Below, piece by piece: positions 6,348 through 62,652 of a stretch of DNA of 64,000 nucleotides; the stretch's first letter is position 1, and each line of letters opens with the position of its first letter. The stretch is from Cliona cf. orientalis (lineage: Eukaryota > Porifera > Demospongiae > Clionaida > Clionaidae). The notes under the pieces were generated by a model. That model did no database searches. It was not told the origin of the DNA and saw only the letters and a program-made list of their open reading frames with translations. A program made the position numbers and the translations under genes. Where the stretch lies: positions 3,162,001-3,226,000 of the forward strand of contig OZ005703.1 of NCBI GenBank assembly GCA_963930775.1, in the 5' to 3' direction.

Positions 6348-6433
6348 ATCACTTACATGAGCCGTGTAGAATAACTTCTTTTTTGTGACCACTAAGCGCT
6401 TTGTCATACCATAATTAAGACGTTGTTCTAGCC

Positions 6434-34184: not shown

Positions 34185-37100
34185 CTACAGGTTTGTTGAG
34201 CCAGTTTCCCACTCTGGTTGCCACTGAACATAGCGGTCTTCTCCATGCATTGGTTGCAAGAGGATGCCTTGATGAGGCTTGTCAATGTCAACAGCAGTCT
34301 CCTCTTGAGGCAGCCTAACAGCTTGTGGATTCCCAAGGATGTAATCTGAGCTTGCTGTTCTCGTCTTCACTTGTTTGGGTCGATAGACCAGTGCCCTACA
34401 GCTATTAAAAATTAATGGTGGTTATAACAAAAAGTAATTACTGTAAAACATGTATACAATAATAATTATAATAATAATGTATTATAATATAGCATGTGTG
34501 CCCAAACACTCATACACATGCACACTTGCTGCAGGTGTGTGTTCATGAAGCATAAGCTACAATGTCATTCTTTCTGTGCCCACAAAGGGCCTACGGAGGC
34601 CACCTCCAGCCCAGTACTTTGCATTATGTTATGATACATGATCCTCACCATTTATAGACACCGAGTATACACAATAGAAGCAAAGACACTCCAACTGTGG
34701 CCGCAATGGCAATGCCAATGATGACAAGAAGTGAAGGGCTTGATGAGGATGGGGTTGGTGGTGGGATCAAGTATGCTCCAGTCACAGAAGAAAATCCACT
34801 TTCAGCATATGCATCTTGTGATGTCTAAAGCAATAATACAAGATATAGCTAGCATGTTACTATTAGATAGTTATTACTGTACCTCAATAGCTTGGAGTAT
34901 GTCATCCACAGACAAGATAGCAGCATCACTATTGGTCAGTATGAACATAGAAAACTGTAACTGATTGCTGACATCCTTAAAATCTCTAAGCACAATATCA
35001 TCTGCAGTAACCATCTGAAACTCCTGCCTTTTCCTATTGCACATGTAACATGATTTTCCACAACTTACATAACATTATCTATGCAGCTATATAAACTTAC
35101 TTTTGGGCAAGAGCACTATCTTGACAGTTGCTTGTTTGACAGTAGTCATTGATAATACTTGCAGTGGTCTGCTTGAATTGCTCTTGACGGTCAGCTGAAA
35201 ACTGTATTCAGGTTTTGAATCAGTTAGTCAAAATTAATGCAACCAACTGATCATCTTTAACTTACAGTTGCGACTGAAAATCCCCTCAACATGACAATCA
35301 CAGAATTAGCTTCAAACTCGGGTAATAACTCTGATCAATTATCATAAATGAATAAAGGCAAGTTATTACTGATAATTTTTTTACCATCATCCTCTTCCAC
35401 AGTGATTTGAAGAGTGGCATAATACTGATCTTCTCCAAGAGCTCCTCCAGCAATGTAATTAGTACCATCATCAATAGCAATCGAAAGTAGTGTATTTCCA
35501 TCTGTAGCCACACTATTGCCTTCAATTGTAATCATTACACTCTGAAATGAGGGTGCATCAGTAAGTTAAGTAAATTTTTGTTGTAGTGATAATCATAATA
35601 ATTATGATCATGATAAGTATAATAAACTTACTGCTGTTGTGGCTCCTCTTGTGAAGGTAACCTGCTGACTCACTAAGCCTGTATATGTGCTAGGGTAGAT
35701 GTTCAGAGCCACTGATATCTCATCACTACTGGAAGCAGAAAGAGACAGTTGGATAACTTCACTGTGTGTCTCGGCCCCTTCAGAAAAGGTGACTCGCTCC
35801 ATAGTGAATCCAACAATGGCTGAGAAATAGACCAAAAAGTAAAGCATAATCATCCTTAGAATCTAGTGCATGTTTCTTTGCATCTTACGCCTGCATGGCT
35901 GATTTATGTCATCTTCTTGATGCCTGCCATATCCATCTAAGCAAGGGCATAGCTCATCATCTTGGTTTAGCTGTCGAATGCTGTTGGTAGGGCAAGATGC
36001 ACACCGTGTATTCCTCAGGCGGTAATAGTTCTCAGCACAAACTATAGAGGTACAGATCAGCATCATCAGGTGGTTGCACCAATAAATAAACTTACTTTCA
36101 CTGCACACCCCATCAATAAGTGTTGTTCCACTTGGGCACCGACAGGTAAAGCTGCCTTCAGTATTAATACACACCATTTGGTTTGAACATAGCTGGATAC
36201 CATCCATCGCTCGTAGCAAACACTCATCAATATCTGTTAAGAAAAGAATTCCCACTAGTTAGAGTGTGCTTCATCTCTATTATTAAAATTTTATATTCAG
36301 ATTAGCTATACCTGAATTGTGAAAAATTTTTAGTCCTTACTTACCTTCACAAGATCTTTCATCTAGACCTAATCTGAAGCCAACTCGACAGCCACATTTA
36401 AATCCACCAACGGTATTGTTACAAAGCTGACTGCATGCACCCTCCTGACACTCATCCACATCTATATATTATGGGAAATACACCAAGATATTAATAGCAC
36501 ATGCATGATGTGGATTCTTGTGACAAACCTTGGCAAGTTAATCCGTCCTGAGCGAGGGAATAACCTCTGTTGCAGCTGCAAAGCTCAGCACCATCCAAGA
36601 GCACACAGTTTTGATCACATTCATTAGTATTACTACAAAGACTGCTAGCTGCATGTATTCATGACAGTTTGAAAATAATAGCTAGCAGTCATAATATTAT
36701 TGTGGTAGCTATTCTTGAATCTTCTGTAGTAAGCCACACATTACTCACTCACCTGTGCATGTGATGTTATCTGATTGCAACTCATAACCATCAGCACAGG
36801 AGCAAAAAAAGCTTCCTTTCACATTATTACACACTTGATGACATCCACCATTGAGCTCAGCACATTCATTTACATCTAGATTAACAATAAAGGATATCTG
36901 TAAATTTAATACTCGTGAGTAGTTGGCACCTGGCCAATATATACCTTCACAGTGTGTGCTGTTTGTCAGTGAATATCCAACTGAACAATCACAAGTGTAT
37001 GCGCCATCGGAATTTACACAGACTTGCTGGCAGTTATTTAGTGTGGCATTTGCACACTCATCAATGTCTAAAGGAAAGTAATCTCTCTCATAGCTATTAT

Positions 37101-37778
37101 TCAATAATTACAGCCGAAGTTGCTAAAGGAGTCATTACAACAGCTGCTAATACAATACACAATAACAACAACAATACCAGTGCATTTCATTCCATTGCCA
37201 TCAAATCCATCAGGGCATGGACCACACATAGCTCCTACACCAGGTGCCTGAACATCTTGACAGTCCACCCCCTCAAAGCAGCTGAGGTCGGCACATCCAT
37301 CAACATCTACATCACAGTATCTACCACTGTACGCTACATACAGGGTGAGTACACATGAAAGCCATTACAGCAGTCCAGTATTAGACATGTAGTCGATACT
37401 AACCTGGGCTACAGTCACAATTTAAAATAAGTGGATTTGAGGAGACATTAAGTAGTCCCTCGGCAGTGCAGCTTCCTCCCTCACCACATGCACAGATACG
37501 AATCTGTGGATTGAGTAGAGCTGTTGCATTCAATTCATCCTTAGCAATGATTTCAATGGTCTTGTTGAAAGAGCTTATTTGGTTGAGCGGAAGTGAGAGA
37601 GTCAAAGTGAGAGTATATGAACTGCCGTCCACTTGCAATGTTGCATTATCTGCCAATCCACCTTCTACTGTTAGTATGAAATTGTTGTGATCATCTGTTA
37701 CATTGAAGGTGTAGTATGACCGCTCTCTGATGGTTGCAAGGAAGATGTTATTGCCCATAAGAATAGGAGGACCATTGG
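34185..37778 (-). other. Exons 46-60: membrane-proximal modules, TM helix, cytoplasmic tail
   Basis: Exons: 37778-37404, 37333-37178, 37067-36945, 36875-36753, 36648-36529, 36461-36345, 36233-36096, 36041-35889, 35819-35632, 35541-35385, 35330-35266, 35201-35101, 35033-34883, 34824-34649, 34401-34185. Exon 46 is a beta-rich region with [10 protein letters not shown]. Exon 47 is a thrombospondin-type EGF. Exons 48-52 are EGF domains, and exon 53 is Cys-rich ([19 protein letters not shown]). Exons 54-55 are possibly Calx-beta-like. Exons 56-58 hold a conserved-looking domain with two close Cys (DYCQTSNC) that I cannot name. Exon 59 has [20 protein letters not shown], the TM helix. The tail contains YILGNP and no known catalytic domain. 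Confidence 0.8.
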
Positions 37779-40700
37779 CTAAACCAAGAAACATCAAATT
37801 ATATAAGCATAGTAAAACAATTATAAACTTACCAGTTATCATCTGATCATTGGTATTGGTTATATCAGTTTCCAGAGTATCTAGAGCAATGTCAGTCCTT
37901 CCAGTCTGGATAGCATCAAATATGCACTCAGCATTATCTCCACAGAGCTGACGAATCTCATCAGTAGCTGTGGCTATGACTTCATCAAGAAACACTGGCT
38001 TATGCTCGGGATGGGAGAAACTCTCAGCACTCGTTCCTTCCGGATAAGTGAATAGGCTCTCTGATGGAATTATTTCCCCTACATCAAAATGGAAGCAATA
38101 ATGTTAATTTTAAAGCACATACTCATTATTTTACATGTTTGTCCAAATAAATGAGTCATCCTATCACCAGCTTCAGTACTGAGTGTAGTACCATTAGGGT
38201 ACACTAAATCATCAGTGTCATTCTGATTAAAGTTTCCCAGTAGACCCCTGGTACTGCCCATAAATTCATGAGGTAGAGCTGCCATGAAATTCAATATGCC
38301 AGTCGACAGTGTGACAGTAACAGATACACCATTGAAAAATGATGATGTAATCTTGTTTGCTTCAGTCCTTATGATGTCAACAAAGTCATTGGAGATAGAG
38401 TCATTGACATTTCCAAGATCACCAATGATACGAGTACTATTCAAGAGCACATTTAGGCTGTTACTTTCATCCACTCCCACCTGGATAAGAAAGGAACGAA
38501 AATGCATGTACACTGTAACAGAGTAACAGTAATAGTTCACTAGTGACATCATACCTCAACAATAGCTTCGGTAACTCCAAACGCAAAGGCAGAAAACATG
38601 GTTGCATTAGTGTTGTTGAACGGTGAAGTTCTTCCCTGAAGTTCAAACTGATCCTCTACTTTGAGAAGGACATACTCCCCCCAGCCATTGAAGGTGTACT
38701 GGTAGCCATCGAGTGTTGTGATATGAGGATCTCCCCAGCCCCATGCTACACAGAATGATGAAGAAATTATTAACATGCACACTAAAATTAATTGTGACAT
38801 ACTGAAGCGTGGTGGGAAGTATGAAGCACAATCATCAGGTGGCCTCCGTTCATAGTACAAGCTACAGCGATCACTTTGGTAACAACAAAGAGTTTTGAAT
38901 TCCAAGTCGTATTCCCTGTACTGCCTGTTTTGAAAGAATGGATGGAACAAGAGAAGTGATCCAGTGGACCCAGTGCTATCAGTCTGAGTCAAAAGGGAAC
39001 CAAACCTGTGCAATATAGTATTTACAATGCAGTCCAAATCAACAGATGTTTTAATTCATTCAACTCACGAATCAGGTAATGTCGAGTAGCAGCATTCCTG
39101 TACTGCGCCACGCCGAGATCGAAAGCGCTGAATGAAACAGACAGTAAATGAAGGTGGCTGAGCAATAAAATTGAAGATAAAGCGTCGATCTCTCAGTGCT
39201 TGGAAAGCAGAGCATGGACATGGCCGTGCAAAAGACGCAAGTGAAATGGGATTGGTTCCGAAGATCTCGATATCATCTTCATATTTTCTCAAGCATTTTG
39301 CTCTGCTCTCTTCTACAACATCACCTGAGATATCACCAATCTTGTAAACTAGGTTAGACCACTCAACTCCACGATCCCTATTTGCACAAGCTACAAGGTG
39401 AACATTTGGTTGTCCACTGAGAGGATAGTTATCAAATCTTGGGAAATCATCGGCAACTCCTTCCCCAACATTATAGCCAATGACAGCATGTTCAAACAGA
39501 CCCGTCCATTCGAGCATATCACAATTGTAAGTGAATACAGTGAATGTTTGTTCACCATCTGTTACTATGATAGCCTGGAAGCTGTTCCTCTAAAAATAGA
39601 TGTTATCGATCAGACACTCATCTTATTTGTATTTTTAAAACTCACTTTGTCAGTAAAGGCATCCAATACATTCTCAAATCTAGCCCTTGATCCGTGTGGG
39701 AATGGAGGAACACTCTTCCACTGCACTACTAGCAATGTGCTTGCTGTAAAATTTGCTGGCAATCCCTGCTTGACCAAAACATAGTTACTGATGTAGTTCA
39801 AGAGTATTGTTTCCTGTTCATTTCCAGATGCTCTGAAGAACTGCTTGTAGTGAATTTCACCTTCCGATCTGATATCAATATCACTCCAGAATGGAGCAAC
39901 CACTAATGAGTCACGTATTGCCTGGCGATTTGTTGGAAATAAATCCGGTCTATAGTAACTAAATCCTCTTCTAAAAGATATTATTCCATTATCTCCAACC
40001 TGAAGTGATTAAATTGGTGCTCACTGCTCAATATGAGTGTGCATGCTTAAAACTTGAAATTACTCACAAATGCTCTGGTTTCTGTACTTCTTCCAATGGG
40101 TATTCCATTGCTGAAGTATATGGCTCTAGAGTGTCCATCAGAAGATCTCAGCTCCAGCTTCTTAGTGCCTTCCTGGTCAGCGATGTCGAGAAACCTTATA
40201 CCTGAAGTTGGTATTTAATTTCAACAGTTTGATTCTTAAAAGGATCATTTCTCACCATTCTCGACAATTTCAATACTTATTTGGTTTGGACCCTCAAATC
40301 TGTCTCCACTCTCGACTGTTTGAAATGTGACAAGAAATAGTCTATCTGGTGTATAGAGAAGGTCTTCCTCTATGCTAATGGATACACAGCCAACACGCTG
40401 AATGCCAGTGTCAGAACTGGAATTGAAGTCAATGAACTCTTCATGTTCAAGAACTGAAGCTATAAGGATTGCCAGAAGAGTTAAAATGCAATGGTTATTA
40501 TGGCTGCTCATAAATATACCCGGGCCAAACAAATTTACCATCATCATACTGTGAATCCACTCTACTGACGACTTGAATGATTCTCAATGGCTCCTGTGCG
40601 TCAGACTGAGGTGTGGACTGAATTAGCTGAACACAGAGTGCTATATTTCTTCCTTCAACTAACAATGCAGTTGTGCTGTTTACTAGAGTAAAGATTCTAC

Positions 40701-43700
40701 CAGTCCCTGTGAATTATCAATGTCAGATTAATGCTCTTACACAAAGGCAGTTTGAGAGCTGTAGCTACTTACCAGCACAGGTTCTTTGGTCATTGTTAAG
40801 TACATATCCAGTAAAACATGTGCACTCAAAGCTTCCGATAGTATTGGTACAACCTTGTTGACAGTCATGAATGTCTGTGGTACACTCATTAACATCTTCA
40901 CATGACATTCCGCCGCTAGCCAGAGAATATCCTTCATTGCAGCCACACTGAAATGAACCAATGGTGTTTCTGCAAAGCTGCTCACAATCGTTAGACTCAG
41001 TTTCACACTCGTTTACATCTGAGAAAAGTTAATATCAGTTTCACAGTGCACTAAATGGCATGACTTAAATTTATACCAGAACAAGTTTGCAGATCATCAT
41101 TAAGAATATAGCCAACATAACAACCACATCTGAACTCTCCTTCCGTGTTGACACAGGCCTGCTCACAGCCATGAGTCCCGGTTATACACTCATTAATGTC
41201 AACACAAGTCCTCTCATCATCAGACAGGGCATAGCCATCATCACAGGTGCACATAAATGAACCATCTGTGTTGTTGCAGCCCTGGTTGCATCCATCAGTA
41301 TTGCTTGTACACTCATTAATATCTGTTAATTAAGAGAAGAAGCAAAGATGGAGAGAGATAATAATATGAAGAATCACATAATATTATCACAGATATATAC
41401 CTGAGCAGGTCCTTTGATCAGTGTTGAGGGAGTAGCCAGCAAAACATTCACATCTGAATCCACCATTTTCATTGATACACTGCTGCTGGCAATCATGTGT
41501 ACCCAGCGTACACTCATTGATCTCCACACAAGTCTTTCCATCATCCAATAGAGTGAAGCCACTCCTACAACTGCACTCAAATGAACCTTCTGTGTTAGTA
41601 CAGATCTGATTACAGCCATCAGTGTCGGCAGCACACTCATCAATGTCTGTATAAAAGAAGACTAGTTGAAGAATGGAATTTTATTGGAGTTCTTTCCATA
41701 CCAGTACAAGTGGTTTGGTCAGAGTTGAGTTGAAACCCTGAATTACATTGACATCTAAAGCTCCCTTCCGTATTCACACAGAATTGCTGACATCTATTTA
41801 AATCTGGTGAACACTCATTTATATCCATGCATGTTCTTCCATCATCAGCCAGTGAATATCCATCGTCACAGAGGCAGTTAAATGATCCATTGGTGTTGAT
41901 ACAGGTCTGTTCACATAAGGAGGTATTAGCACACTCATCAATATCTGTAAAAAAGTAAGTATAATGGATAAGCAGTACCCAATTGTAGCTATACGGTATT
42001 ACCTGAGCAAGTGCTATTGTCCAGATTTAACTGAAATCCTGCTAAACATTCACATTGAAATCCTCCCATTGTGTTTACACAGACCTGCTGGCAACCACCG
42101 AGCAACGACATAGCACATTCATTTATATCTGTAGGAATCAATGAAAATAAGTCTCCGATTGTCAGTTCTGCTCTATCAATCACATTTTGCTTTGCCACTT
42201 TATCATGCCTTATAGATTAAGAAAGTGGTAGGTGCATACTAATACACTATACCACAGTTTGCTCTGCAATAATTAATTTTACCTGAGCATGTGCTGCCAT
42301 CATCATTCAGCTCAAATCCTGGGTTACATTCACACCTGAACCCTCCAGCAGTATTCACACAGAGCTGCTGGCACTCATGGAGTCCTGCCTCACACTCATC
42401 CACATCTCTACACGTTACTCCATCCTCAGACAGCATGTATCCATCAAAACAGAGGCAATTAAATGAACCATTAGTGTTATCACAAATTTGATCACAGGCA
42501 GTAGAATTAATAGCACATTCATCAATATCTGCAAGTGAAGATTATTAAATAATTGTCACTTACATAAACAGTAACAGAGTCTACAAAACTTGCCAGCACA
42601 GGTTCTTAGGTCATCATTCAGAGAGTAGCCAGCAAAACATTCACATCTGAATCCACCATTTTCATTGATACACTGCTGCTGGCAATTATGTGTATCCAGC
42701 GTACACTCATTGATCTCCACACAAGTCTTTCCATCATCCAGTAGAGTGAAGCCACTCCTACAACTGCACTCAAATGATCCTTCTGTGTTAGTACAGATCT
42801 GATTACAGCCATCAGTGTCGGCAGCACACTCATCAACATCTATATAAAAGAAGACTAGTTGAAGAATGGAATTTTATTGGAGTTCTTTCCATACCAGTAC
42901 AAGTGGTTTGGTCAGAGTTGAGTTGAAACCCTGAATTACATTGACATCTAAAGCTCCCTTCTGTATTCACACAGAATTGCTGACATCTATTTAAGTCCGC
43001 TAAACACTCATTTATATCAATGCATGTTCTTCCATCATCAGCCAGTGAATATCCATCATCACAGAGACAGTTAAATGATCCATTGGTGTTGATACAGGTG
43101 TGTTCACATAAAGAGGTATTAGCACACTCATTAATGTCTGCAAAGACGTTATATATTGGGATGGGACGATCATACACACAAATAGCAATACATACATACC
43201 TGAGCAAGTGCTGTTGTCGACATTTAGCTGAAATCCAGCCCTGCATTCACATCTAAATCCTCCAATGGTGTTTACACATACTTGCTCGCAACTCAATGGT
43301 AGGTTAGCTGACAATGTACATTCATTCACATCTGCATGAATGAATAATAAGTCGTATCATAAATTTTGTAAGGCCTAGGGAATGAATGTTGTGCAACATA
43401 GAAGAGATATATGGTTGGACTGCATGTTGCTGTACTGGTGCTGATATATACCTGAGCATGTGCTGCCATCATCATCCAGCTCAAATCCTGGGTTACATTC
43501 ACAACTGAACCCTCCAGCAGTATTCACACAGAGCTGCTGGCACTCATGGAGTCCTGCCTCACACTCATCCACATCTCTACACGTTACTCCATCCTCAGAC
43601 AGCATGTATCCATCAAAACAGAGGCAATTAAATGAACCATTAGTGTTATCACAAACTTGATCACAGACAGTAGAATTAATAGCACATTCATCAATATCTG

Positions 43701-46700
43701 CAAATGAAGATTATTAAATAATTGTCACTTACATAAACAGTAACAGAGTCTACAAAACTTGCCAGCACAGGTTCTTAGGTCATCATTCAGAGAGTAGCCA
43801 GCAAAACATTCACATCTGAATCCACCATTTTCATTGATACACTGCTGCTGGCAATTATGTGTACCCAGCGTACACTCATTGATCTCCACACAAGTCTTTC
43901 CATCATCCAATAGAGTGAAGCCACTCCTACAACTGCACTCAAATGATCCTTCTGTGTTCGTACAGATCTGATTACAGCCATCAGTGTCGGCAGCACACTC
44001 ATCAATATCTAGAAGAAGCAAAAAAAAATTATATATAATACCGGTAATAGTGTATAGTTTTTTTTGATAATTTCATGGCACACCAGAACAAGTTGCTTGA
44101 TCAGAGTTTAGTTGATATCCTGAGTTACATTCACATCTGAATCCACCATCGGTATTGACACAGCCCTGCTGACACTGATGTAACTGTGATAAACACTCAT
44201 TGATATCTCCACAGGTCATCCCATCATTTGACAATGAATAACCAGCATCACAAAAGCACTGGAATGATCCATCAGTATTATTGCAGCCTTGGTCACAGAT
44301 ACTGCTATTCATTGCACATTCATCAATATCTGCATATCAATTACGTATATTGCTTACAGAGAATTGATTCAAACTAACAACTTCCTGTTATTTTGATCCA
44401 TTTAAATGATATAATCTAGATATAAATATTTTGTGTACCTGAGCAGGTCCTTTGATCAGCATTGAGAGAGTAGCCAGCAAAACACTCACATCTGAATCCA
44501 CCATTTTCATTGATACACTGCTGCTGGCAATTATGTGTACCCAGCGTACACTCATTGATCTCCACACAAGTCTTTCCATCATCCAGTAGAGTGAAGCCAC
44601 TCCTACAACTGCACTCAAATGATCCTTCTGTGTTTGTACAAATCTGATCACATCCATCAGTATCACTAGTGCATTCATTAATATCTATAAGGAAAGATGT
44701 TACATATCAAGACAAGACAAAAGTTGTGTTTAAACCGTAATTTACCAGAGCAGTTGAGTTGATCAAAATTCAACTGATATCCTGAATTACATTCACACCT
44801 GAATGCACCATCAGTATTGATGCATATCTGCTGACATCCATGAGCATCCGTAGAGCATTCATTAATGTCTGTGCATGTTATCCCATCATTAGATAAAGAA
44901 TATCCACTATTGCAGGTGCACATAAAGGATCCAACTGTATTAGTGCAGGATTGACTGCACTGACTCGTATTAGTAGCACATTCATCAACATCTGAAAGGT
45001 TATCATAAACGTTGTAATATACACCAATACATGTTAAAGTAGCTCCACAGTAGTACCTGAACAAGTGCTTCCATCAGTATTAAGCTGAAATCCTTGGCGA
45101 CATTCACATCTGAATCCTCCATCTGTATTTATACAGTTTTGCTGGCATCCATGAGTACCAGCTACACACTCATTGATATCTCCACATGTTCTGCCGTCCT
45201 CATTCAGTGTGTAGCCCTCATTACAGCCACAGATAAAGGACCCATTCGTGTTGATGCACACTTGACTACATCCGTCAATGTCAGCAGTACATTCATTAAT
45301 ATCTGTAAACAATAACATCAAATTTTTGTTATTAGTAGTGTTAATAAAATTAGTAATATTTTAATACTGCAGCACCTGAACAAGTGCTATTATTCATGTC
45401 TAGTTCAAATCCTGAATCACAGTCACATCGGAATCCTCCATTAGTATTGATGCACACTTGTTGACATCCATGTGTACTGGCACATTCATTGATATCTACA
45501 AAATTAATATTATCATAAAAGGCATTTTCAATGCATATATATACCTAATGTAGTAGTTTAGCTGGAAACATGGAACAATTTCACATGATGCTAGAGGACT
45601 TAAGTTGGCCAAGTAAAGGAGTTTACAAATGCTGAATCAGATACATCTGATTCAGCATAATATAGCTGACTTGATGAAAGCTTAGTATCTTTTCCATTCA
45701 TGCTATGGCTACCATTATTATTTTTATTACCAGAGCAAGTAGTATTATCAGAATTTAGCTGATATCCTGGACGACAAAGGCATCTGAATCCTCCAGCAGT
45801 GTTCTCACAAATGTGCTGGCATTCATGTGTACCCAGAGAACATTCATCAATATCCATGCATGTCCTTCCATCACTAGATAATGTGTAGCCTTCATCACAT
45901 ATGCAGTGAAATGACCCATTGGTATTGACACAGGTCTGTGTACAGCCTCCAGAGTTACTCAAGCATTCATTTATGTCTGCATAAATTTAGTCCCATGTTA
46001 TAATCTACGATAATATTATCCAGGATTTCATCCAGTGGGGGGGGGGGGGGGGGGGGGGGGGGGGAAGCTTCCCCCCCAAACTCCCTAGCTTCCCCCCCCC
46101 CTAAGAATTTGACTTTAATTTAATTGAGCATCATAATATCACAGTAAATCACCAAATCATACCACTAGCATTTACTTTTGATCAAAAATTACCCGAGACA
46201 ATCTGGAGGAATTAAAGAAATTCTCCTAAACATATGCCCCAAGGAACTTGGTATGCTGAATACGCCCACTCATTTATCACGCTTCCACCCCAAAATTTTG
46301 TCACTAGATGAAACGCTGTGTTATCCTCTCAGTATTCAAACCGAGAGAGTATATTATAGCATGCATACCAGCAAGAAAGCAAGGACGGCTTACCAGAGCA
46401 TGTCCTTCCATCACCAGACAGAACATATCCATCACGACAGGTACACAGGAATGAACCAACAGTATTCTGACATCCTTGGTCACAACCATCCGTATTGGCA
46501 ATGCATTCATTGATATCTATGATAGCATAATGCATATCATAATGGAGTTAATTTATAGTATCCCCAAATAAATTACCAGAACAAGATCTCTGATCTGAAT
46601 GACGTTGATATCCAGCGTTACAACTGCAAATAAAGCTTCCGATAGTGTTAATACAGTTTTGCTGGCAACCGTGAGTGTTTGAAGTGCATTCATTAACATC

Positions 46701-49700
46701 TTCACAACTTCTTCCATCACTAGACAATAGGTATCCTTCATTGCATTGACAGGTGAATGAACCGACTGTGTTGTTACATAGTTGACTACAGTTTCCATTG
46801 GCTGCCGCACATTCATCAATATCTACATGTGAGCATAAGAGAGTAGGGACAGTAACAACCAAAGTATGCAACAAAGGTGCAAAGGTGTAATTAACGATAC
46901 TATTGTATAGAAGGCCAACTTGGGAGTCTATTGCACATGCTCAAGCTTCTCTACTATGGGGAATCTACTGCGCATGCTTGAGCTTCTCTACAGTACGTTT
47001 TGCTACTATCTAGAGCACAAAATTAATATGATTTGTAGTCATAGATCTCAGAAGGGAACACATTGAAACGTTTGTGAGCAGCAAGAGGCTGAACGTGAAG
47101 AAAAGAAGCCTCCAAGAAGAGGTATGGGTGATATTAGCACAGCACGCAGGGTATATGCTCTATCAGCTCTAGTAATTCGTGTGTCCGTACATTATTGTAC
47201 TTGTGTTACATGATTCTAGCTATGTTTTTTCTGAGTCCATACTTTTTAATGATTAAATTGTATCCCCTGCACACCAAACAGAATTATAGATAAAAAAAGG
47301 CAGAAATGCAGCATTAGGTAATCGTGCTATGTATATATACCGCTGCAAGATAATCCATCTGAGTCAAGAATATAGCCAGTGTTACAACTGCAATCAAACG
47401 ATGCTTGTGTATCTGTGCAGATCTGGGCACATCCTCCATTATTCACAGCACACCCATTCTCTGTATTACGGTAGTATAGTAATTACATTATTGGAGGCCA
47501 TAGTATTATGGAAATAACATTATTGGTACTTGTTGCATTCAAACAATAATATTGCTAAATCATACCTTGTGGTCCGTTGTATGGCACTTCACAATCAGAG
47601 CCAGTAAATCCAACATCACAGGAGCAGCTTCCATGATTGTTACAAACCTATTAAATAGGAAATAGTGCGTGGGTAAGCTGGGCCACCATACTTAAGCAAA
47701 TCCACGTACACCAGACATAATAATATTTCAAGGGCTAATTCGAAATTGTACTAAATTTTGCCTTTGAAGTTTCAGAGTAGACTATAGCAGTTGTATGATT
47801 TGCAAACTGACAGCCTTGTTGATCAGATAATACATAACACTAGCTTAGCGATCAACTGCACCTCAGACTGCCTAAAAATACACGTTCTTGTTCTATTGAA
47901 CAGTATGTAGTTCATGACGATAACATGGATGCAGGAGCATTAGCAAACAATAATGGTGCGTCCATACATCTCTTCATGTAGATGAGGCTATATATGTCAG
48001 ATAATAGTTAACATACGATTTTCATAACGTTTATAATAATCATATGAGCAATTGACGATCTTTAGCAGGAAAATGCGCATTTTTTCAAAATTGAAATTTT
48101 TTTCCATACGTTGTATTACATTAAGTACGGGGTATGTACTTCATCTTCTTAATAATATCAATAGGCAATTGTTCCAATAACGTACCCCATTCCCTGAACA
48201 GATGAGTCCATTTGAAGCTGCTTCACAAGCCAAGGTTGTTATATCAGTCACAGGAACACACTCTTGAGTCAAACAAACTCGATCATTATCACATTTTGTA
48301 CCATCTTGGACTAGGCCGGGACTCATTACATCCGCTCCAATGTCTGTACTGAATGCTCTGTACAAAGTGTAGCTCCATTGCACATAATATTGTGTAACAC
48401 TAACAAACATTCAACATACCTGCACACGTCACTGCCAATTGTGAATGTGGTAATGGTGACAGATACCCCAGGATTGGCTTGAAAATCACCAGACATGCAA
48501 TGCAACTGCCCACACTGCACATTGCTAAAGGGCAACAATTATAATATTATGGACCTGATCATATATGAAAATTAATACCTGCATGCAAGAACAATCTAGT
48601 TATACTTTATCTTTAATGACATTTTATTCATAGCATCATGCATACCACAATAATATAAGGATGCAACATCATTATTAATTCAATGATAAATTATTATACT
48701 AGGACCTAGCACTTTAACCTTTCTGAGCATGGTATAAAATCGGTAGAAGTTTGACCACAGTGTCCAAAAATATCTCCTCTCACATTAATTCTCTCATAGC
48801 ACACATCTGCTCCCTTATTTGAACCTAGACAATATCGTAACATCTTATTAATAACAATAGACCACAGCAATGAATACTTACCAAATGCATTCTGACATTG
48901 TGCATTATATGTTGGGCAAATCCCTGTATAACAGAAACCTGTAGAATTGGCACATGAAGTACCATCTACAGTGTGTACATCAGCTGGGCAATCAGAGGAG
49001 TTCCCAGAGCAATATTCTGCTATGTCACATTCACCACTGGAGGCTCGACACTGAGTCCCATAAGATATAAAATTGCACGTGCTATTACAGCAAATGCCAG
49101 CACTGCATTGGGCACCAGTTGCCAGCTGGCAGGTATCAGGATTGCAGCAAGGATCTGCACACTCAGCAGGGCTTCCACAGTCACAAATCTCATCCCCTTC
49201 TCTTATTCCATTTCCACACACAGGATCACCCACTGTCATAGTGGGCTCGTTAAAGAGACACATATCCAGATTCATTCCATAGCCTTCGTTTAGGTCAGAT
49301 ACACTGCAGTCACTCCATTGAGTTGGTGGAGGAAAGCCAGATACAGCAGACATGATGCAGCCAGTTGTATCACTGTCAACACAATTACACATTTGACCAT
49401 CAGATCTAGATTCTACAAAGTAGAAAGTCAAACTTATGACTGTACATGTATTATGGATATAATGCAATTTTTACCATCATGCATCATATTGAAAATGTGT
49501 CCTAGTTCGTGGGCAGCTGTGCTTGCAGTTGAGGAGGGATTACGGCCTCCATCTTGCGTTAATCCTACTGAATGTGTTTCAGAGCACATGGTGCCTACGA
49601 ATGCAAAACCGACCGTATTACCAGTCAGATCAATTCCACTGCAAATTTGTGATAAAAGATATGAAAGTGGACGGTAGGTGTGTTAAAGTGTGTTAACTTA

Positions 49701-52700
49701 CGTCAACAGCATGAGACTATCATATGGCGTTGTAACACGTGGCCGATAGACTGATTGGAGACGAGTGAGCAAAATGTTTGGATCTGATGAAACTGTAATT
49801 TCATCTCCGTTAACCCATGTGATGACATCTACTAACACAACTCTGATGTTGAGGGCCCGAAACAACTGAAGTGGAATTTTGTATTACTAATCAAATGGAA
49901 CTTGACATTGTAGCATTAACTTACAGCATCAACATCATTTGCAATGGTAAGAGCTCTTATAACAGTAGCAGTCAGGTTACGATCATTTGCTACATACTGT
50001 AATACAAAAATTTAGTTAATGGGCCTTATTATAAACCTATATTATTAATTATCACATTCACTGCATTAGTGCGAATTGCAAATAATATTATGCATGCCGC
50101 TTAGTGAGAAACTTAGCACAATAGTTATCATAATATTATTATGTCGCCATTAAGGTTGCCAATATGTTTTTGATTTAGGCCTCTCAGAGTTAATTAAATA
50201 AGATTAAACCTGACCACGGTGAAGAATCCAATAGCTGAGTCTACTACTATGATGTGCACTGACCCAGACTCCTAATACAATTGTTTCAAAATCAGCTATA
50301 GCTATGCCTAGTCAGCAACAATACCATAAAATTAATTATCACCCGCCTGATATACTGACACTATGGCCATATTTATAGTTCATCAAACAGAGCTACTACC
50401 TTATTGCATCCATTACAGTATCACATGCACATATCAAAGGCTCTTCAGAGCACATTGATTAGCATGTATCCAGCATAATGAGAATTACCGTATACGTATA
50501 TGAGCCCTTAACCATGATCAATTCATGACCTACTACAGCCTTATGAATGCAAAGAGACTGGAGTAGTACATTATTAGTCTCCATTAGGCATAATAATATA
50601 GTACATAATACAATAACCCTTGCCGCAAAGCGTAGGAGGAGGATTACTGCAATCATTTGGCGTTTTTTGTCCATCCGTCTGTTGCAACCCTCCTTTGCTA
50701 AATGGTAAGGGTCATAAATGTACGTGTTCTAGGCATACGTGGCATAAATGTGGTCATGTTAAGTCCTGGCCAGTGGAGTACAGGGTAGTGTGCAGCTTGC
50801 CAGTCTGTGTTTTACACCTGCCCCTAAACAGGGTTCTGGTACTGGAGTCAGAGTTGGGGGAAGGCACCTGGCTATGCCACTATATAAACTGAAAGCCTCT
50901 GTGACATACTTCAACTGAATTATATGCACTTGAGCCTAGAGCCACTGCCTGTTTACACCATCACTGCATTTACAACTGACCAGCAAAGCACAGAATGGCA
51001 ATCACGGTCATGTAGTTGAGGTAGGTGCCAGGTATGTACCAGTACCCTGTTCAGGTGCAGGGTATGTAGTTCAATACTCCTGATATTGAACATGCACAGT
51101 ATTATACACAGTGAGCCATGCTATATGCATGCATGTAGCGATGAGGATTGTGCACTTCTGAGCATTCATTACTTATTGATACCAATCTAAACATGACTAT
51201 AACAATAACCATGAAACACAATCAAACATGTGGCATCTTATATACCACTCACTAAGTTACCTGACTGTTATCGTTAACTACTATCCATTCAACAATCCTT
51301 TGAGCACTTTGTCGTCGAAGCTGCATAAGAGTACTCAATCATATCAAGTTACACCATGTATCCTTTATTGTAAGAAGATGCTGAAAGATCAGCCTTACTC
51401 GGGTGTGAATGGCACGCTGGGTCTCATCTAGATTTGGCCATGCTACATCTCCTCCAGATGGCATGCTTCCAAAACCAGAACCTATCCATGCACAAATTGG
51501 ATTAATCAGTTTAGCAGAAGTATGCAATTTTTCCGGACAATTGATGAAGCATTTAACATTGTGCACAAACTTGGTATGGACTGGCATAATATGGCAACTG
51601 TTGTGTTCAGATCAATGTTATTGACTTACCACAGGAGCCCGTCTTGTGTTGGTATTCCGAATCAAGGTAGAGGGCGTGCATTTGTTCCAGCTGCAGTTAT
51701 GGGTAGTGTAATGTTAATCACATTGTCATAATTTTGCCTTGTGAATCCATGCTTGTTAACGTTTGGCACATAATAATATTATTATGTGAGGGGTATGATA
51801 GTCATTCTGCATGTCTGTTGCCATACTAGCTGCTACATAATATACTGGTACACACTTCCAATGTCCAAAATTTAATTGTGGTGATATCGAATTTCTAGTA
51901 GGTTTCACTGAAAGTGTTTTATTTAGGGGATATGGCATCATTAAATTTTGTTTGTCAAGATAATATTGTTGGCGTTTCAATTCTTTCTCAATCAAATACC
52001 GTGTTTAAGGTACCATTAAATTGCGTGGGCGTGAGGTGGGGGATATGACACCTAAACCACATCAAAGTCATTAGTGAGGTGCATGTTGTGTAACCACGCC
52101 CTTTTAATTGCACAGGTCTCAGGGGTGTGGCTGCTAGAGCCGGAAGTGTTCATTTAATATCCTCCATGGACCGGAAGCCGAGCCGGAAGGGAGGGGCCAG
52201 GCCACGCCCAAAACAGCCCCACCCTCTTCCCCAAGGACCACCATTCTCAATCAAGTGCCTACTAACCACCGGATGTCCACCGGAAGCCCACAATCAATCC
52301 CAATTAAAACACACAGCTTCCTCAAGGCCAAAACACACACAAACACTTGGAGGCCGTTCTGCCACACCGCCCACGCAAGAGCTCACCTCATTTCCTGTGT
52401 GGGCGGGGCAACAACACGTCATCGCAACCACATCCGCTTCAAACCATCGTCAGCTTCCGTCCAGCCGTACAGGCCCCTCGATCGCACCGCCGTACAGTGC
52501 CTCATTAACAGACATGGCCTCACCTTTGACCTCCTGCCACGCCCCCAAAGCCTCCTCGCGGGGTTCAAAGGTCACCACCGCTTCCGGGACACGCCCACCT
52601 ATCGCCGAGGCCAAGTCCCAGGCGCCGATGTCTAAGCACTGGCCCGTGAAGCCACGCCCAATCGGAAGCAATAAAATCTGCATTAACGCACGCGCACACA

Positions 52701-54879
52701 CTCCACACAGTGCCAGGAACACGCCCACATGCTTAATTAGGCCTATTTAGCTTTTTTTTTTTTTTTTTTTTTTTTTGTCGTTGCGGTTAATAGTTAAGCA
52801 AGAATGCTTTGATCTTGCTTTGATGTGGGCAATTACCGGCCTTTTCTTCAGGGGCCACTTCCGGTCGCTAATTACACGCGCATAATCATCCCTGGCCGAT
52901 TCTGGACACGCCCACCTTCGACCAAAAGCACTCGTATGGCCTCTTCGGCCACGCCCCTTCACGATTCGCTAATTGAATTAGCCATTCCTGACGCTCACGC
53001 CCACGCAATTAAATGGTACCTTAAATGCAAGATCCAATTAGCACAAGAAAATTTGCATTCTAGGACTTTAATATGAGCTAGTAGCTAGAAGTAATGGATC
53101 TAAAATAGAGCGGTTTCTTTGACCATCTTGGGTTCTAACGAGTCATGACATCAATCACATCAACATGTGCATGTGCTTGCCTGAAAATGCCGTGCACACA
53201 TGCTGAATTGAGCTAGTTTCATGGCTACATACACTATACCCAGCAACGCTAACAGACTAAGGCAACTGCGCCGAGGTATTTACATGATAGTATTTCATTA
53301 ATGTTGGTAGTTCTCCTATCAGATTGCATGTAATCCACTCCTGGTCCACTCCCTCTCCCTCCACTGTGGGAAGTCTTAAAGTGCCAGAACTACACAAAGC
53401 AGCCTTTTGTTACAGTTAGTTTATGAAGTGGTAGATTTATAGGTGTATTTTTAATATTTGCATGTACCCATTCCAGGGCCACTCCCTAATACTTGTCTAA
53501 TTAATCTGCGCCCCACCTAGTAATATCATGTAGGTGTGTTAATTCGGGTTGATAGTAGTATATACTACTGAACTTACTGAACCATTTTCCACATCCAGAG
53601 GTTCTAAGTGGAAGTAGTTGTTTTCATCATGAGGATCTCCAAATGCACCCCTATGATAGAAGAAGCCACCACAATTACAATCTGAAGGGCTTGCTTCGCT
53701 TCCCCAATGCTACACCCAGCTACAGTAGTCTTCTGACACTGCTGTTAACTAAAAAGGCTGTGAAAGGGCAGTTCTTGCAAACTCAGTCAGTGTGGTAAGA
53801 AGACAGTGTTGGTCATCATTTGTGTATACAGCATATACATGATATTGCACCAATGCATTGTGGCACAAGCATAATACTATTAATGTTTGGCAAAGAAACT
53901 TGTTACCATCTCTTCTACAAGTTGTATGAAGGAAAACTTAGACCTCTGTGGAGATGACTAAATTGCCTAGCTAGGCATACAAGAAGTACATAGACTATAT
54001 ACATGCCGGACATTAACGGGGACTCAGCCGCCTTGCCCACCACCACCATTTCTCCACCTCTGGTAAGTGTACATTGAAGCCTTTTTCGTAGATCTATCCA
54101 AGGAGCTAGTTAGTATTCAGACCTATATTGACTAATGCCATGACTATCGTGCAGTACAGCTACAGCTGGATGCCACACGGTCTCAGCGAAACTATTATCA
54201 CAATAGCTTGCTACTCACTGTAGTCCATGGCATGTGCTCATAGTAACTGTCCAGTTGGAGTGGTTAACTACCCTTCCGTGATAGAAACAATTGATGTGGC
54301 CCTATAAAATATGCATTTTCACCATAATAAGACTATTACCAGGTGGGGAACATTAATGATTGGTTACCTTAGTAACCACTTCCTGATCATCTTTGTCATA
54401 GTAGCGAGAAGTAAAGTATGGAGATATTAACTGTCTGTAGATAATAATTATGCATAGTTATTGGTATACCATTATGTATGTGCTTTAGTCTTACTCATTC
54501 ATTTGTAGCTGTAGAGAAAAGTTGTACGTCCGAGAATGTAGGGCTATTTGCAGTTGTTTTGGATGTGGCTGCAAGCCACAAACTTTAATCATTAATGTAC
54601 CCTATCAACTAATGCTTTAAGCAACTCACTTGATAGCCATCGCCGTGGATGATAATTGGTACCACAGACTCATAATTAGAAATAATCTCTACAATTATTC
54701 AACAGCATGATAATGATCATGATGTCTCAGCAACATATTAAATTAACACTATCTCAGCCAAAAAAAACAGCCACATACAACTCACCTTTTGGTGCTTTGA
54801 TGCTTTTGAAGCAGTGGCTATCAATGGTTGCTGTTGTAAGACACAATAAGCCAACCCAAACAGCTTTGAGCAACAGCAT
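34185..54879 (-). CDS. Giant ADAM-EGF-NIDO-AMOP-VWD single-pass membrane protein (60 exons, ~3,671 aa)
   Basis: Read by eye as 60 exons with consistent phases from ATG (54879) to stop (34185). Order with rough residues: signal peptide 1-20; ADAM prodomain to 175 with cysteine switch KTGSCG (C144) and furin site RLRR (172-175); zinc peptidase with H314ELGH to H324D; disintegrin; ADAM Cys-rich; ADAM EGF (to ~657); 35 EGF domains (658-2092); Calx-beta-like segment; NIDO (about 2262-2470); AMOP; VWD (2621-2803) with GDPH near 2625; EGF-like modules; second beta-sandwich; membrane helix about 3573-3596; tail of about 72 residues starting [13 protein letters not shown]. The front half is an active-looking ADAM sheddase. 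The back half has MUC4-like order (NIDO-AMOP-VWD-EGF-TM). No internal signal peptide, stop or promoter was seen. Joining of the two halves is inferred from phase-1 continuity and needs transcript proof. Exon coordinates are in the block entries. Confidence 0.75.
37833..39005 (-). other. Exons 42-45: VWD domain with GDPH site
   Basis: Exons: 39005-38803, 38745-38555, 38480-38123, 38078-37833. Exon 42 links AMOP to VWD ([20 protein letters not shown]). Exon 43 opens with [20 protein letters not shown], a classic VWD start. GDPH (about 38734-38723) is the Asp-Pro motif cleaved in several mucins. [14 protein letters not shown] in exon 44 is the other VWD landmark. Exon 45 ([15 protein letters not shown]) matches the region after VWD in MUC4-like proteins. 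Confidence 0.85.
39069..40706 (-). other. Exons 37-41: Calx-beta-like segment, NIDO and AMOP
   Basis: Exons: 40706-40539, 40459-40256, 40201-40068, 39999-39646, 39589-39069. Exon 38 has a Calx-beta-like pattern ([33 protein letters not shown]). [33 protein letters not shown], then [19 protein letters not shown] follows in exon 41, with [22 protein letters not shown] and paired Cys near QECCYS. NIDO and AMOP together are typical of MUC4/SUSD2-type adhesion proteins. Confidence 0.82.
40773..47460 (-). other. Exons 17-36: array of 35 EGF domains
   Basis: Exons, all phase 1-1: 47460-47341, 46822-46577, 46516-46394, 45976-45731, 45495-45376, 45302-45057, 44991-44746, 44684-44439, 44329-44084, 44008-43763, 43697-43452, 43331-43200, 43137-42895, 42839-42594, 42528-42283, 42128-42003, 41944-41702, 41646-41401, 41322-41077, 41018-40773. 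Most exons of 243-246 nt carry two domains; those of 120-132 nt carry one. Nearly all domains open D[IV][DN]EC, the calcium-binding pattern, and many have the C-x-N-T-x-G-[SG]-[FY] hydroxylation-type core. Calcium would make this a long rigid rod. Exons 26-29 and 30-33 are a recent tandem duplicate. Confidence 0.9.
46038..46064. repeat. Poly-G tract in an intron, with C-tracts just downstream
   Basis: A run of about 25 G is followed by short C-runs (CTTCCCCCCC) to about 46100. Able to form hairpin or G-quadruplex structure. Intronic between EGF exons 19 and 20. Confidence 0.8.
50612..51170 (-). mobile_element. AACCCTC-family element in an intron of the ADAM-type gene
   Basis: Reverse-orientation copy of the 1581-2070/24266-24820 family, with the AACCCTTGCCGC end at about 50615 and the GTAGCGATGAGGATTG end at about 51135. 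It lies between exons 8 and 9. Confidence 0.65.
52009..53020 (+). mobile_element. TTAA-flanked non-autonomous transposon, copy 1
   Basis: 1,012 bp. Ends are inverted repeats of about 27 bp beginning GGTACCATTAAATTGCGTGG, flanked on both sides by TTAA (52005-52008 and 53021-53024), as in piggyBac-type insertions. GC-rich, with many CACGCCC/GGGCGTG motifs and an internal T-tract (about 52751-52777). Several overlapping frames are open (207 aa on plus, 92 aa on minus) but resemble no protein I know. Inserted between exons 5 and 6 of the ADAM-type gene. Confidence 0.85.
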
Positions 54880-56242
54880 GGCTGACTACACACTAGTAGC
54901 TAGATCTACTGAAGCTTAATTCTGCTAGCTAGCCTCCAAGCATGATCTAGTCTACTGTCACGGTAATGCCTCTTTATATAGAATTCTGCTTCAGCGGATT
55001 GTGCTTGCTCAGTAGCATCACAAATCCGAGATGCGCAAATAGCTAGTAGCAGTACTATGACCATGATCAATGGAGGCGGTAATGGTAGCTAGTAGTTATA
55101 AAAAATGCAAACATTTCCTTTAACGGTATGCACCCTCCTGCCCTGCATTGTCGCTTGGTCACGTATTAATACGTGGGTGTAACTAAGCTGTAACCTTATA
55201 CGCTTGTATTGTAATGAAAACTTGACCATGCCCTCAGCTGCATAGTGGAAATGGTGTGTGTGGTAAAGGTCATCAACAGAGTGGGTTCACTGTACAGTAC
55301 GATGCCGGCGCCTCAGTCGCAGACTAGCCTTGAATCATCGGGAATCTGAGCGTCAACAGCGCAGTAGACAGCTAGATCGGTCAGGTCGCACGCTGCTCAA
55401 GGTGCGTGCTATATATGTGTAGGGCTATCTATATTAATATATCCACGGGATTAGGTCATCCTAGAGAATGCTTGAAGTTCGGCTCGTCAGAGAAGGCAAC
55501 ACGCTGCTTGTAAGGTATTCGCTGGATACACGCGCAAGATACTCTACATATTTCACTGAATTTCAAGTCCCAGAAGGGCTCCATCATAGATTATATATAA
55601 TCTATGGCTCCATCGAGGCCCTCATAATTACGTCATAGATTACACCATAGGTTTCATCATAATTACTCATAATTACCTAATAATCGCAAAAAAAGTAAGT
55701 TGTTACCGAGGGCATAACATCACCAAACTGGAAATGATTGTCAATATTATAGGGTGCGGTGCACTCCCCTGCGCATGTGTAGTATGGTTAGCTCAGTGTG
55801 TGGACACAATCTTATAGCTGATTTGTGTGTACCGCATTGAAACCAGCAGAGGCTGTATGATGTAAGGTAAAGGGTCCTATCATTGGACAGCACCATTTTA
55901 TTGTACATGGTACGGAATATCACGTACCACAAAAGTTACGAGCATGCTGTATGCGCGGGAAAGTGGTTCTAAATAACGTATAGGTATCTGGGTATTTCTA
56001 TGTGCAAAAAAACCCTGGATAGTTTAATTACTAACTGTTGTCTCCAGCACTGAACGAAAGCGGTAGCTAAGAGTTAAACACAAATGCCGGTATTTTCCAA
56101 GACGAAAAAGAGTTCAGTGAACTTCAACAGGTTGTAAAAGTTTAACCGCCTGAGTAAAACTTATTCATGTTTTTGTAGTCATTTTAGAGAGAATTTAGTG
56201 CTCTTTTGTGCTATCTGCTGTATTGCTGTTATAAAGCATTAA
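54880..56242. other. Upstream region of the ADAM-type gene
   Basis: TTTATATA on the plus strand at about 54973-54980 reads as TATATAAA on the minus strand, about 95 bp upstream of the ATG: a candidate TATA box. A segment at about 55205-55410 is related to 60485-60700 (TTGACCAT..AGCTGCAT..GTGTGGTAAA). A short palindrome ATAGATTATATATAATCTAT lies near 55585-55604. No gene is seen. Confidence 0.5.
54973..54980 (-). promoter_or_regulatory. Candidate TATA box of the ADAM-type gene
   Basis: TATATAAA on the minus strand, about 94-101 bp upstream of the start codon at 54879. Confidence 0.45.
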
Positions 56243-57255
56243 GGTACCATTTAATTGCGTGGGCGTGAGCGTCAGGAATGGCTAATTCAATTAGCGAATC
56301 GAGAAGGGGCGTGGCCGAAGAGGCCATACGAGTGCTTTTGGTCGAAGGTGGGCGTGTCCAGAATCGGCCAGGGATGATTATGCGCGTGTAATTAGCGACC
56401 GGAAGTGGCCCCTGAAGAAAAGGCCGGTAATTGCCCACATCAAAGCAAGATCAAAGCATTCTTTCTTAACTATTAACCGCAACGACAAAAAAAAAAAAAA
56501 AAAAAAAAAAAAGCTTATTAGGCCTAATTAAGCGTGTGGGCGTGTTCCTGGCACTGTGTGGAGTGTGTGCGTGTGCGTTAATGCAGGTTTTATTGCTTCC
56601 GATTGGGCGTGGCTTCACGGGCCAGTGCTTGGACATCGGCGCCTGGGACTTGGCCTCGGCGATAGGTGGGCGTGTCCCGGAAGCGGTGGTGACCTTTGAA
56701 CCCCGCGAGGAGGCTTTGGGGGCGTGGCAGGAGGTCAAAGGTGAGGCCATGTCTGTTAATGAGGCACTGTACGGCGGTGCGATCGAGGGGCCTGTACGGC
56801 TGGACGGAAGCTGACGGTGGTTTGAAGCGGATGTGGTTGCGATGACGTGTTGTTACTCCGCCCACACAGGAAATGAGGTGAGCTCTTGCGTGGGCGGTGT
56901 GGCAGAACGGCCTCCAAGTGTTTGTGTGTGTTTTGGCCTTGAGGAAGCTGTGTGTTTTAATTGGGATTGATTGTGGGCTTCCGGTGGACATCCGGTGGTT
57001 AGTAGGCACTTGATTGAGAATGGTGGTCCTTGGGGAACGGGGTGGGGCTGTTTTGGGCGTGGCCTGGCCCCTCCCTTCCGGCTCGGCTTCCGGTCCATGG
57101 AGGATATTAAATGAACACTTCCGGCTCTAGCAGCCACACCCCTGAGACCTGTGCAATTAAAAGGGCGTGGTTACACAACATGCACCTCACTAACGACTTT
57201 GATGTGGTTTAGGTGTCATATCCCCCACCTCACGCCCACGCAATTTAATGGTACC
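56243..57255 (-). mobile_element. TTAA-flanked non-autonomous transposon, copy 2 (inverted)
   Basis: 1,013 bp, about 98% alike to copy 1 by eye, in opposite orientation. TTAA at 56239-56242 and 57256-57259. It has the same terminal GGTACC and homopolymer run. In this copy the long open frame is broken by a stop where copy 1 is open (GGAGTAAC for GGGGCAAC). Confidence 0.85.
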
Positions 57256-57391
57256 TTAATGCGCCTTAGAGCTTGTTTTGAACAGAGTCTAGTCTTGCAC
57301 CAGATAATGGACACAATTATTCCTTAGAGTAGTTTTGTGATGGCAAGCTACTGCAGAAGAGACAAAACTGGTCTATATGTAGTATATACAC

Positions 57392-60196: not shown

Positions 60197-60816
60197 TATG
60201 TTGCGGAAACTCACAAATCTCGTCAACTATATGAATAATGTGACTCGCCACTGAGATGCCTCCAGTCACTTTGATGATGATATTAAATAATATTTTAGCC
60301 AAAAACTTAATGCTGGAAAAGTTATTAATTCTCCGTAAATTTTAAACAAGTAGCTACAAGTTCTAGTTCGATGTATTAAAGCCACGAGATTGAATTATAG
60401 CGTGCTCTACAAAGTATATTTATTAATAGCTAATTGATTCAGTTTCCCAATAGACTTTAGTCTATATATAGATGGACTACACTTGCTATTAAAGGAACAC
60501 TTGACCATATCCCCAATAGCTGCATGGTGTAATGGTGCGTGTGGTAAAAGGTCGTCAATAGAATGCGTGCACATCAATGCAGGTGCCTAAGACCGACTCT
60601 CAGCCTCGATAGCAACTAGTTTCGGTGCTTCAATCACAGAGACAAATTCGACAGGGCAGTACATGTGTATACCTTCCGAACTTCAAGTTGGTCGCGCTGC
60701 AGTCTCGCGCGGGGCAGCCCCTTCACAATGATGCGTGCGTGTTATTATTATTAATATTTATTATTATTATTATTTGATAAACACACCACCATAGGTGCAG
60801 CATAAATTAAAGTATA

Positions 60817-61044: not shown

Positions 61045-61522
61045 AAAGGTAATGAGTATGGAAAGAAAGTGAAGATGTTAGGTTGTACGGACATAAATAA
61101 TATTATTTCTTCACTGAAATGTGAGTTCTGGTCTGGTGTATATAGCTAAGTCTAACATCACAAATAAAGCTTGTGACAAAGAATGTCTTGATCTGTGTAG
61201 ATCTTCTTATGATGGGAGCCATAAATTAAGTTATACTCTAGGCTCGCTATTGTGTAAGTAAGGGTTGAGCTCTGAACAGTCACAATTCGAACCAGCAAAG
61301 ATTGAGATTTCAGGGCTGCAGACAGAAGCCTGGATGATCTCCGAACAACAATATTGTACAAGCTGTTGAGTTGAGCTGTACAATGAAGTATGCCAGTGTG
61401 ACACATACAAGGGAGAAGACCAAAAGCTGCAGAGGATACTGTTGAATGTAACCTCAAGCAACCTCAGTTCAGAAGAGGAAGAAAACCAAAGTAGCAAAAG
61501 CTGTCAAATAGCTTAGTTTTAA

Positions 61523-62525: not shown

Positions 62526-62652
62526 TTAACAAGTGGGTTGCAGGGAGAGAATGAGTGGAGCATGCAGTTAGCTTTGTGAACAAGATCTTTCTCACTCTAA
62601 CCATAGATTAGGCCTATATAATCTATGCTCTAACAATATCACATAGTTACCC

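Follow-up and report, generated by a model that had tools for sequence, protein, structure and literature searches.

In the sponge Cliona cf. orientalis, a single gene appears to encode a chimeric type I membrane protein in which an ADAM protease, a long array of EGF units and a MUC4-type half follow one another in one polypeptide, a reading of the sequence to which we assign a probability of about 0.85. The gene lies on the minus strand of the window, that is, the whole stretch of 64,000 nucleotides that was analysed (C15:3162001-3226000), and its relatives were sought in the 216.8-Mb genome assembly of 149 contigs. A first-pass annotation, made from the letters of the window alone, had proposed such a fusion of ADAM and MUC4-type sequence in one gene, and the proposal is supported by three observations: an ADAM paralogue (ADAM3) carries the same junction between ADAM and EGF array, the nearest MUC4-type paralogues, on contig C19, show no ADAM match, and intron 37, where the two kinds of sequence meet, is only 66 bp long.

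The fusion gene was rebuilt from position 54879 down to position 34185 of the window as 61 exons, comprising 11,070 nt and encoding 3,689 amino acids and one stop; splice sites and reading frames in the final model were judged by eye. The start, the end and the in-frame joining of exons given in the first-pass annotation hold in this model, while its counts of 60 exons and about 3,671 codons do not. A plain codon-score exon finder over-split the gene into 197 to 271 exons and was dropped, and the 49-72 exons that the same finder produced with a higher intron penalty were superseded by the model made by eye. All 60 introns end in AG, 58 of them begin with GT and 2 with GC, and the median intron is 67 bp. 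The two GC-AG introns, at 43762 and 42593, stand at equivalent places in tandem-duplicated EGF exons, and the non-standard donor appears to have been copied with a duplicated exon and then kept. That an 11-kb spliced frame runs through 61 exons free of stops, and that its known domains come in the order expected, is in our view not a product of chance, this being a judgement rather than a comparison with a computed null.

Propeptide, Reprolysin, Disintegrin, ADAM_CR, EGF, NIDO (E = 2.4e-25), VWD and C8-3_MUC4 models all score over the Pfam cut-offs in the protein. Exon 1 (54786-54879) holds the start codon and a signal peptide, the leader being judged by eye, and exons 2-9 (51261-54688) encode the ADAM propeptide, a furin-type RLRR at amino acids 198-201, between propeptide and protease, and the start of the catalytic domain. 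The Reprolysin (M12B) domain (49230-51311), identified by Pfam and by its motifs, has an intact zinc motif HExxHxxxxxH ([12 protein letters not shown], 49511-49478) and the Met-turn CIMS at 49359. It is followed by a Disintegrin domain (48981-49200), a cysteine-rich region (48236-48966, with ADAM_CR at amino acids 501-606) and an ADAM-type EGF made of the end of exon 16 and exon 17 (47566-48200), all three recognised by Pfam. Beyond intron 17 (47461-47565), exons 18-37 (40773-47460), all of phase 1-1 and containing tandem duplicated blocks, encode 35 EGF units, the number first reported, and a calcium-ligand motif is present in 34 of these.

The MUC4-type half begins after intron 37 (40707-40772) with a degenerate Calx-beta-like pair in exons 38-39 (40256-40706), which is succeeded by a NIDO domain (39391-40256) and an AMOP-like region (38806-39391), both with approximate bounds, a VWD domain (38138-38803) with the motif GDPH at 38734-38725, and a C8-3_MUC4 domain (37848-37965). 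Exons 48-54 (35889-37333) supply juxtamembrane EGFs and a cysteine-rich segment, exons 55-59 (34883-35819) a Calx-like and SEA-like stretch, so labelled by resemblance and with no Pfam match over the cut-off, which contains KKRQ at amino acids 3511-3514, and exons 60-61 (34185-34824) a single transmembrane segment (34731-34665), placed by hydrophobicity and by eye, and a tail of about 74 residues. A basic site at the place of KKRQ also occurs in a paralogue on contig C19 (C19a, as RKRQ) and in the homologue P0025. A second GDPH, at amino acid 130 of the model, lies in the ADAM propeptide outside any VWD and is presumably a coincidence. Serine, threonine and proline together reach at most 37% in any 60-residue stretch, and a long mucin repeat domain is absent, so we speak of a MUC4-like core and not of a true mucin. 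In the domain list of the first-pass annotation, the ADAM domains, the EGFs, NIDO and VWD are confirmed by Pfam, whereas AMOP is supported by profile comparison only and the Calx-beta-like units are assigned by homology only. In the profile comparison (hhalign), 7 sponge rows set against 12 NIDO-VWD proteins, 9 of which have a Pfam AMOP, gave 99.1% with E = 1e-18; both sets ended at the start of VWD, so that the shared end of this alignment is by construction. Exons 38-39 were assigned as Calx-beta-like through their homology to the pair that directly precedes NIDO in the C19 paralogues, where Pfam recognises the units further upstream as Calx-beta.

The Disintegrin model matches the genome at six places, three on contig C12, one in the window and two on C19, and the solved relatives nearest by sequence to the ADAM half are ADAM22 and P-III type proteins. 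A stretch of C12 (C12:6058001-6108000) contains a cluster of three ADAM genes, the layouts of which were read off frame listings rather than full gene models. ADAM1 and ADAM2 have the usual form, in which the EGF is followed by a transmembrane segment and a proline-rich tail; in the fusion protein the EGF does not lead directly to a transmembrane segment and cytoplasmic tail, and 35 EGF units and the MUC4-type half stand between. ADAM3, itself a non-standard ADAM layout, shares with the fusion gene the ADAM part, a phase-1 EGF_CA array and a phase-1 junction intron between ADAM EGF and EGF_CA, and differs in that 14 EGF_CA units were found, followed by a transmembrane segment and a long proline-rich tail; no NIDO-VWD was seen after it in the frame listing up to the next ADAM gene. 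A 22-row tree groups the fusion gene with ADAM3 and ADAM2 (96/94), with the database protein P0079 next (89/92).

P0079 has 541 amino acids, comes from a 1,736-base ENA contig of a source other than the window, and carries Reprolysin, Disintegrin, ADAM_CR and EGF_CA models. Its span, which covers the ADAM part only as far as the first EGF_CA, holds eleven intron marks, of which two were set aside (one at the extreme start, one in an adapter-like tail), and over the remaining nine intron positions of the fusion gene it is one unbroken frame that reads from the ADAM EGF straight into EGF_CA. The letters of the tail we take to be translated sequencing adapter. Since it crosses these introns unbroken and ends in such a tail, P0079 is most likely complementary DNA (cDNA), which would place the ADAM-to-array junction in the RNA of another species. 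The phase-1, G+AG junction that the first-pass annotation described between its exons 16 and 17 is found unchanged in the rebuilt model, from exon 17 (47647-47566) to exon 18 (47460-47341). It is not, however, the evolutionary joint for which it had been taken: that candidate was rejected, as ADAM3 has the junction without a MUC4-type half.

The EGF array goes with the ADAM half. The EGF that opens the array, in exon 18, has its best match in the EGF that opens the array of ADAM3 (identity 0.68). When the best identities of all 35 units are averaged, the value is 0.662 against the 14 EGFs of ADAM3 (0.648 when ADAM3 is cut to 10), 0.538 against 10 EGFs from P0026, a MUC4-like protein of Ephydatia, and 0.521 against five EGFs at the C-terminus of the fusion gene itself. 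Unit by unit, ADAM3 is nearer than P0026 in 33 of 35 cases, with one tie and one loss. When the DNA block 42895-44008 was searched against its own genome, the top-scoring match beyond the window lay in ADAM3 (126 bits, the next being 59.9), and this search is free of between-species bias.

Of the MUC4-type half, 13 C8-3_MUC4 loci were found in the genome, that of the window included; the other 12 are on other contigs than any disintegrin match or about 2 Mb or more from one. Of these 12, 8 were compared, and the two nearest paralogues among them, C19a and C19b, are both on C19. C19a has Calx-beta units, the same last Calx-like pair, NIDO, an AMOP-like region, VWD, C8-3, EGFs, RKRQ and a transmembrane segment, and C19b resembles it from the Calx-beta units at least through C8-3; in the array of C19a Calx-beta is recognised by Pfam. 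An ADAM query found no match at 1e-4 in either C19 stretch, and upstream (C19:857501-866501 and 876001-886000) there is no EGF-like cysteine-rich frame. This absence of an EGF array rests on frames of at least 28 amino acids with at least 5 cysteines and on C19 gene models in which the 5' ends of both genes and the 3' end of C19b are not established.

The array is thus ADAM3-like through exon 37 and the sequence C19-like from exon 38, which places the fusion point at intron 37 (40772-40707), a phase-1 intron. Its donor score of 8.4 is one of the two highest among the gene's donors, and at 66 bp it leaves no room for the end of one gene and the start of another. Introns 22-37, at 55 to 154 bp each, could not accommodate the end of one gene together with the start of another, and a hidden gene boundary could lie only in introns 18, 20 and 21 (518, 417 and 235 bp), the only introns of the array longer than 154 bp. 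It is on these that an explanation by two transcripts would build, the ADAM part ending by intronic polyadenylation within introns 17-21 and a protease-free EGF-MUC4-like transcript starting in the array. Intron 18 (46823-47340), the largest of the array, contains an ATG at 47314 that opens a short hydrophobic leader ([13 protein letters not shown]) and, through a phase-1 donor at 47274 (score 3.0), could be spliced into exon 19; an ATTAAA stands at 47250, and the MUC4-like proteins P0027 of Ephydatia and P0028 of Amphimedon each begin with their own leader-like N-terminus and contain no ADAM. The donor is, however, weaker than 51 of the 60 donors of the gene, when intron 18 was shuffled 400 times a candidate of this type arose 16 times, and for introns 16, 18, 20 and 21 summed the shuffles lead one to expect 0.115 introns with such a candidate, where one was found. 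The spliced leader has, in our judgement, no small-residue cleavage site between its hydrophobic stretch and the first EGF cysteine. As the array is ADAM3-like, a gene divided in this way would still be a fusion. We consider two transcripts unlikely, although the start at ATG 47314 could drive a protease-free isoform; the first-pass remark that no second start region is visible was slightly too strong, this weak leader being the one candidate in introns 16, 18, 20 and 21.

A different doubt attaches to the array itself, within which tandem blocks are 89-90% identical over 699-826 bp, so that two loci might have been misjoined there in assembly. No close copy of the EGF block that was searched turned up in the rest of the genome (the best match outside the window being 73% over 207 bp), the strongest repeats do not include the joint at intron 37, and the contig is 8.35 Mb long; an assembly chimera is in our estimate extremely improbable.

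Besides the leader candidate in intron 18, several points weigh against one chimeric gene with the parentage given here. The AMOP-like region scores 9.4 bits in Pfam against a cut-off of 25, and for the Calx-beta-like pair of exons 38-39 Pfam gives no match at E up to 5. ADAM2 is the sister of ADAM3 in the tree (99/97) yet has no EGF array, so the array was either lost in the ADAM2 lineage or acquired on more than one occasion. In exon 19, one unit matches the C-terminal EGFs of the gene itself slightly better (0.64) than it matches ADAM3 (0.63), and the comparison with P0026 leans towards ADAM3 because it sets a paralogue from the same genome against another species. The nearest MUC4-like paralogues were chosen from 8 of the 12 other C8-3 loci. 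The fused gene, which was read from genomic DNA, might moreover be unexpressed or decaying. We think this very unlikely of a gene in which 61 exons are without stop or frameshift and HExxHxxxxxH, the Met-turn and RLRR are all intact; the ratio of non-synonymous to synonymous change in pairs of duplicated EGF exons also speaks for a maintained gene, at 0.12-0.33 where a ratio exists, but these values come from few changes, and exons 28 and 32 differ by 4 non-synonymous and 0 synonymous changes.

The closest named relatives of both halves are from demosponges (Ephydatia, Halichondria, Amphimedon and Geodia). With ADAMs of the M12B family the fusion protein shares signal peptide, propeptide, furin-type site, HExxHxxxxxH, disintegrin, cysteine-rich region and EGF, and its ADAM part is 42-48% identical to ADAMs of Ephydatia, Halichondria and Amphimedon. 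With the MUC4-like family, whose layout is NIDO-AMOP-VWD-C8-3-EGF-transmembrane, it shares NIDO, VWD, C8-3, EGFs and a transmembrane segment and, as in MUC4, a GDPH in VWD, while at the place of AMOP it has the AMOP-like region; homologues of this half include P0025 (45% identity), Em0010g757a and Em0005g97a of Ephydatia and the mucin-like protein P0028 of Amphimedon. The protein searches require shared five-residue words and depend on gene models, and absence from them is not proof. Unlike the fusion protein, none of the 54 MUC4-half homologues listed (from candidates of 954-3036 amino acids sharing most words) has a Reprolysin or Disintegrin model. Conversely, the ADAM part had 24 matches among proteins of 1417-4510 amino acids, a range that covers the full fused length, none with NIDO or EGF_CA models, and among the best 120 of 694 matches of about 440-1400 amino acids NIDO was in none and EGF_CA in one, P0079. 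No protein with both halves is thus among the matches listed, in agreement with the earlier statement that no described protein of this domain order is known, and paper titles and abstract openings contain no description of an ADAM joined to NIDO or VWD.

The accompanying statement that ADAMs have one EGF and then a transmembrane segment is not universal. A predicted ADAM of Geodia barretti (P0085) has a Calx-beta model, ADAM models with PF00090 occur in Oscarella (P0092), Corticium (P0091) and Sycon (P0110), and those of Nematostella (P0009) and Actinostola (P0007) have PF00090, PF00147 and PF00754; a threonine-rich extension was also seen among the sponge and anemone models. PF00090 is TSP1. 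The ADAM C-terminus has therefore been lengthened repeatedly in sponges and anemones, as in the fusion gene, and ADAM extension as a principle has precedents, at least in databases; these database gene models use other modules, and none has an EGF array plus NIDO-VWD. The MUC4-type core has likewise been described with varying N-terminal modules, in mucin4-like proteins of Actinia tenebrosa that carry CUB, ZP or FN3 at the N-terminus (PMC9080433); the words "ADAM", "protease" and "reprolysin" are absent from the main text of that paper.

Taken together, the paralogues suggest as first parent an ADAM gene that, like ADAM3, was already equipped with an EGF_CA array. At the present intron 37, such a gene would have been joined to a MUC4-type gene resembling those on C19, at the last Calx-beta-like unit of the latter, the likely route being exon shuffling through phase-1 introns.

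The furin-type site and the intact catalytic motifs predict that the ADAM part is an active protease. A single fused protein might instead use its ADAM part for adhesion or ligand display, as ADAM22 does, and this would be compatible with a single gene; ADAM22, which lacks HExxH in the alignment, is indeed the best solved-structure match by sequence. Yet both [12 protein letters not shown] and the Met-turn are retained in the fusion protein, and the same holds for P0079 and, in the exons matched, for ADAM1 of C12 ([12 protein letters not shown]); we hold a role in adhesion or ligand display without proteolysis to be unlikely. If the ADAM part is a protease, the signal peptide would take the protein into the secretory pathway, where a furin-type protease would cut at RLRR and free the active ADAM, and the calcium-bound EGF array would act as a long spacer. 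The NIDO-AMOP-VWD-C8-3 block would adopt the fold that it has in MUC4, and may be self-cleaving at GDPH, which in the VWD of human MUC4 is described as a putative self-cleavage site (PMC8660890). After such a cut, an alpha chain with the protease would stay bound, non-covalently, to a beta chain anchored in the membrane, and the juxtamembrane basic site could provide a second release. The protein had been pictured as a surface-tethered protease; a transmembrane segment, judged by eye, is present, but since VWD carries GDPH the tether need not be permanent, and by analogy with MUC4 the arm that bears the protease may be shed or may stay attached by non-covalent contacts. The result would be a sheddable protease kept at a distance from the membrane, either in the surface coat or up against a neighbouring cell. 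We tentatively put forward, with less than even confidence, that this is a protease with built-in release: a MUC4-type protein carrying its own ADAM on a calcium-stiffened arm of 35 EGFs, with two predicted cut sites (GDPH and KKRQ), whose protease and coat are deployed and shed as a unit, and which arose in sponges by exon shuffling.

Around the fusion gene are six similar single open frames of 515-558 amino acids with many hydrophobic stretches, five on the plus strand (2718-4352, 6419-8062, 10669-12276, 21522-23198 and 26117-27664) and one on the minus strand (58646-60226). One is over the Pfam cut-off for POT (PTR2), one is just below it, one has a sub-threshold DUF4220 and three have no match; one pair (6429-8032 and 10670-12261) shares 82% identity. 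Together the six look like a tandemly arranged family of divergent transporters of POT type. In a six-frame search a strong NIDO match (E = 9.9e-48) with stops inside it was found on the plus strand at 16125-16706 and probably marks another NIDO gene, of several exons, close to the fusion gene. A repeated element of about 1 kb occurs in three copies that are 96.5-98.4% identical (51992-53028, 56236-57259 and 61504-62529); one copy is inside intron 6 (1,887 bp) of the fusion gene, and one open frame in the element has no Pfam match. Rfam at gathering thresholds gave no match in the window.

If true, a protease with built-in release would be an adhesion and shedding design for which titles and abstract openings hold no description. 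The fusion gene is a clear case of the building of a new animal surface protein, in that one genome still contains relatives of both parent types, and the joint has been narrowed to one phase-1 intron of 66 bp. It also belongs with the several sponge and anemone models with added modules that correct the view of ADAM C-termini as fixed. If the full protein is made, it would tie an ADAM protease to a MUC4-type core, two components that are separate molecules among the other proteins found here.

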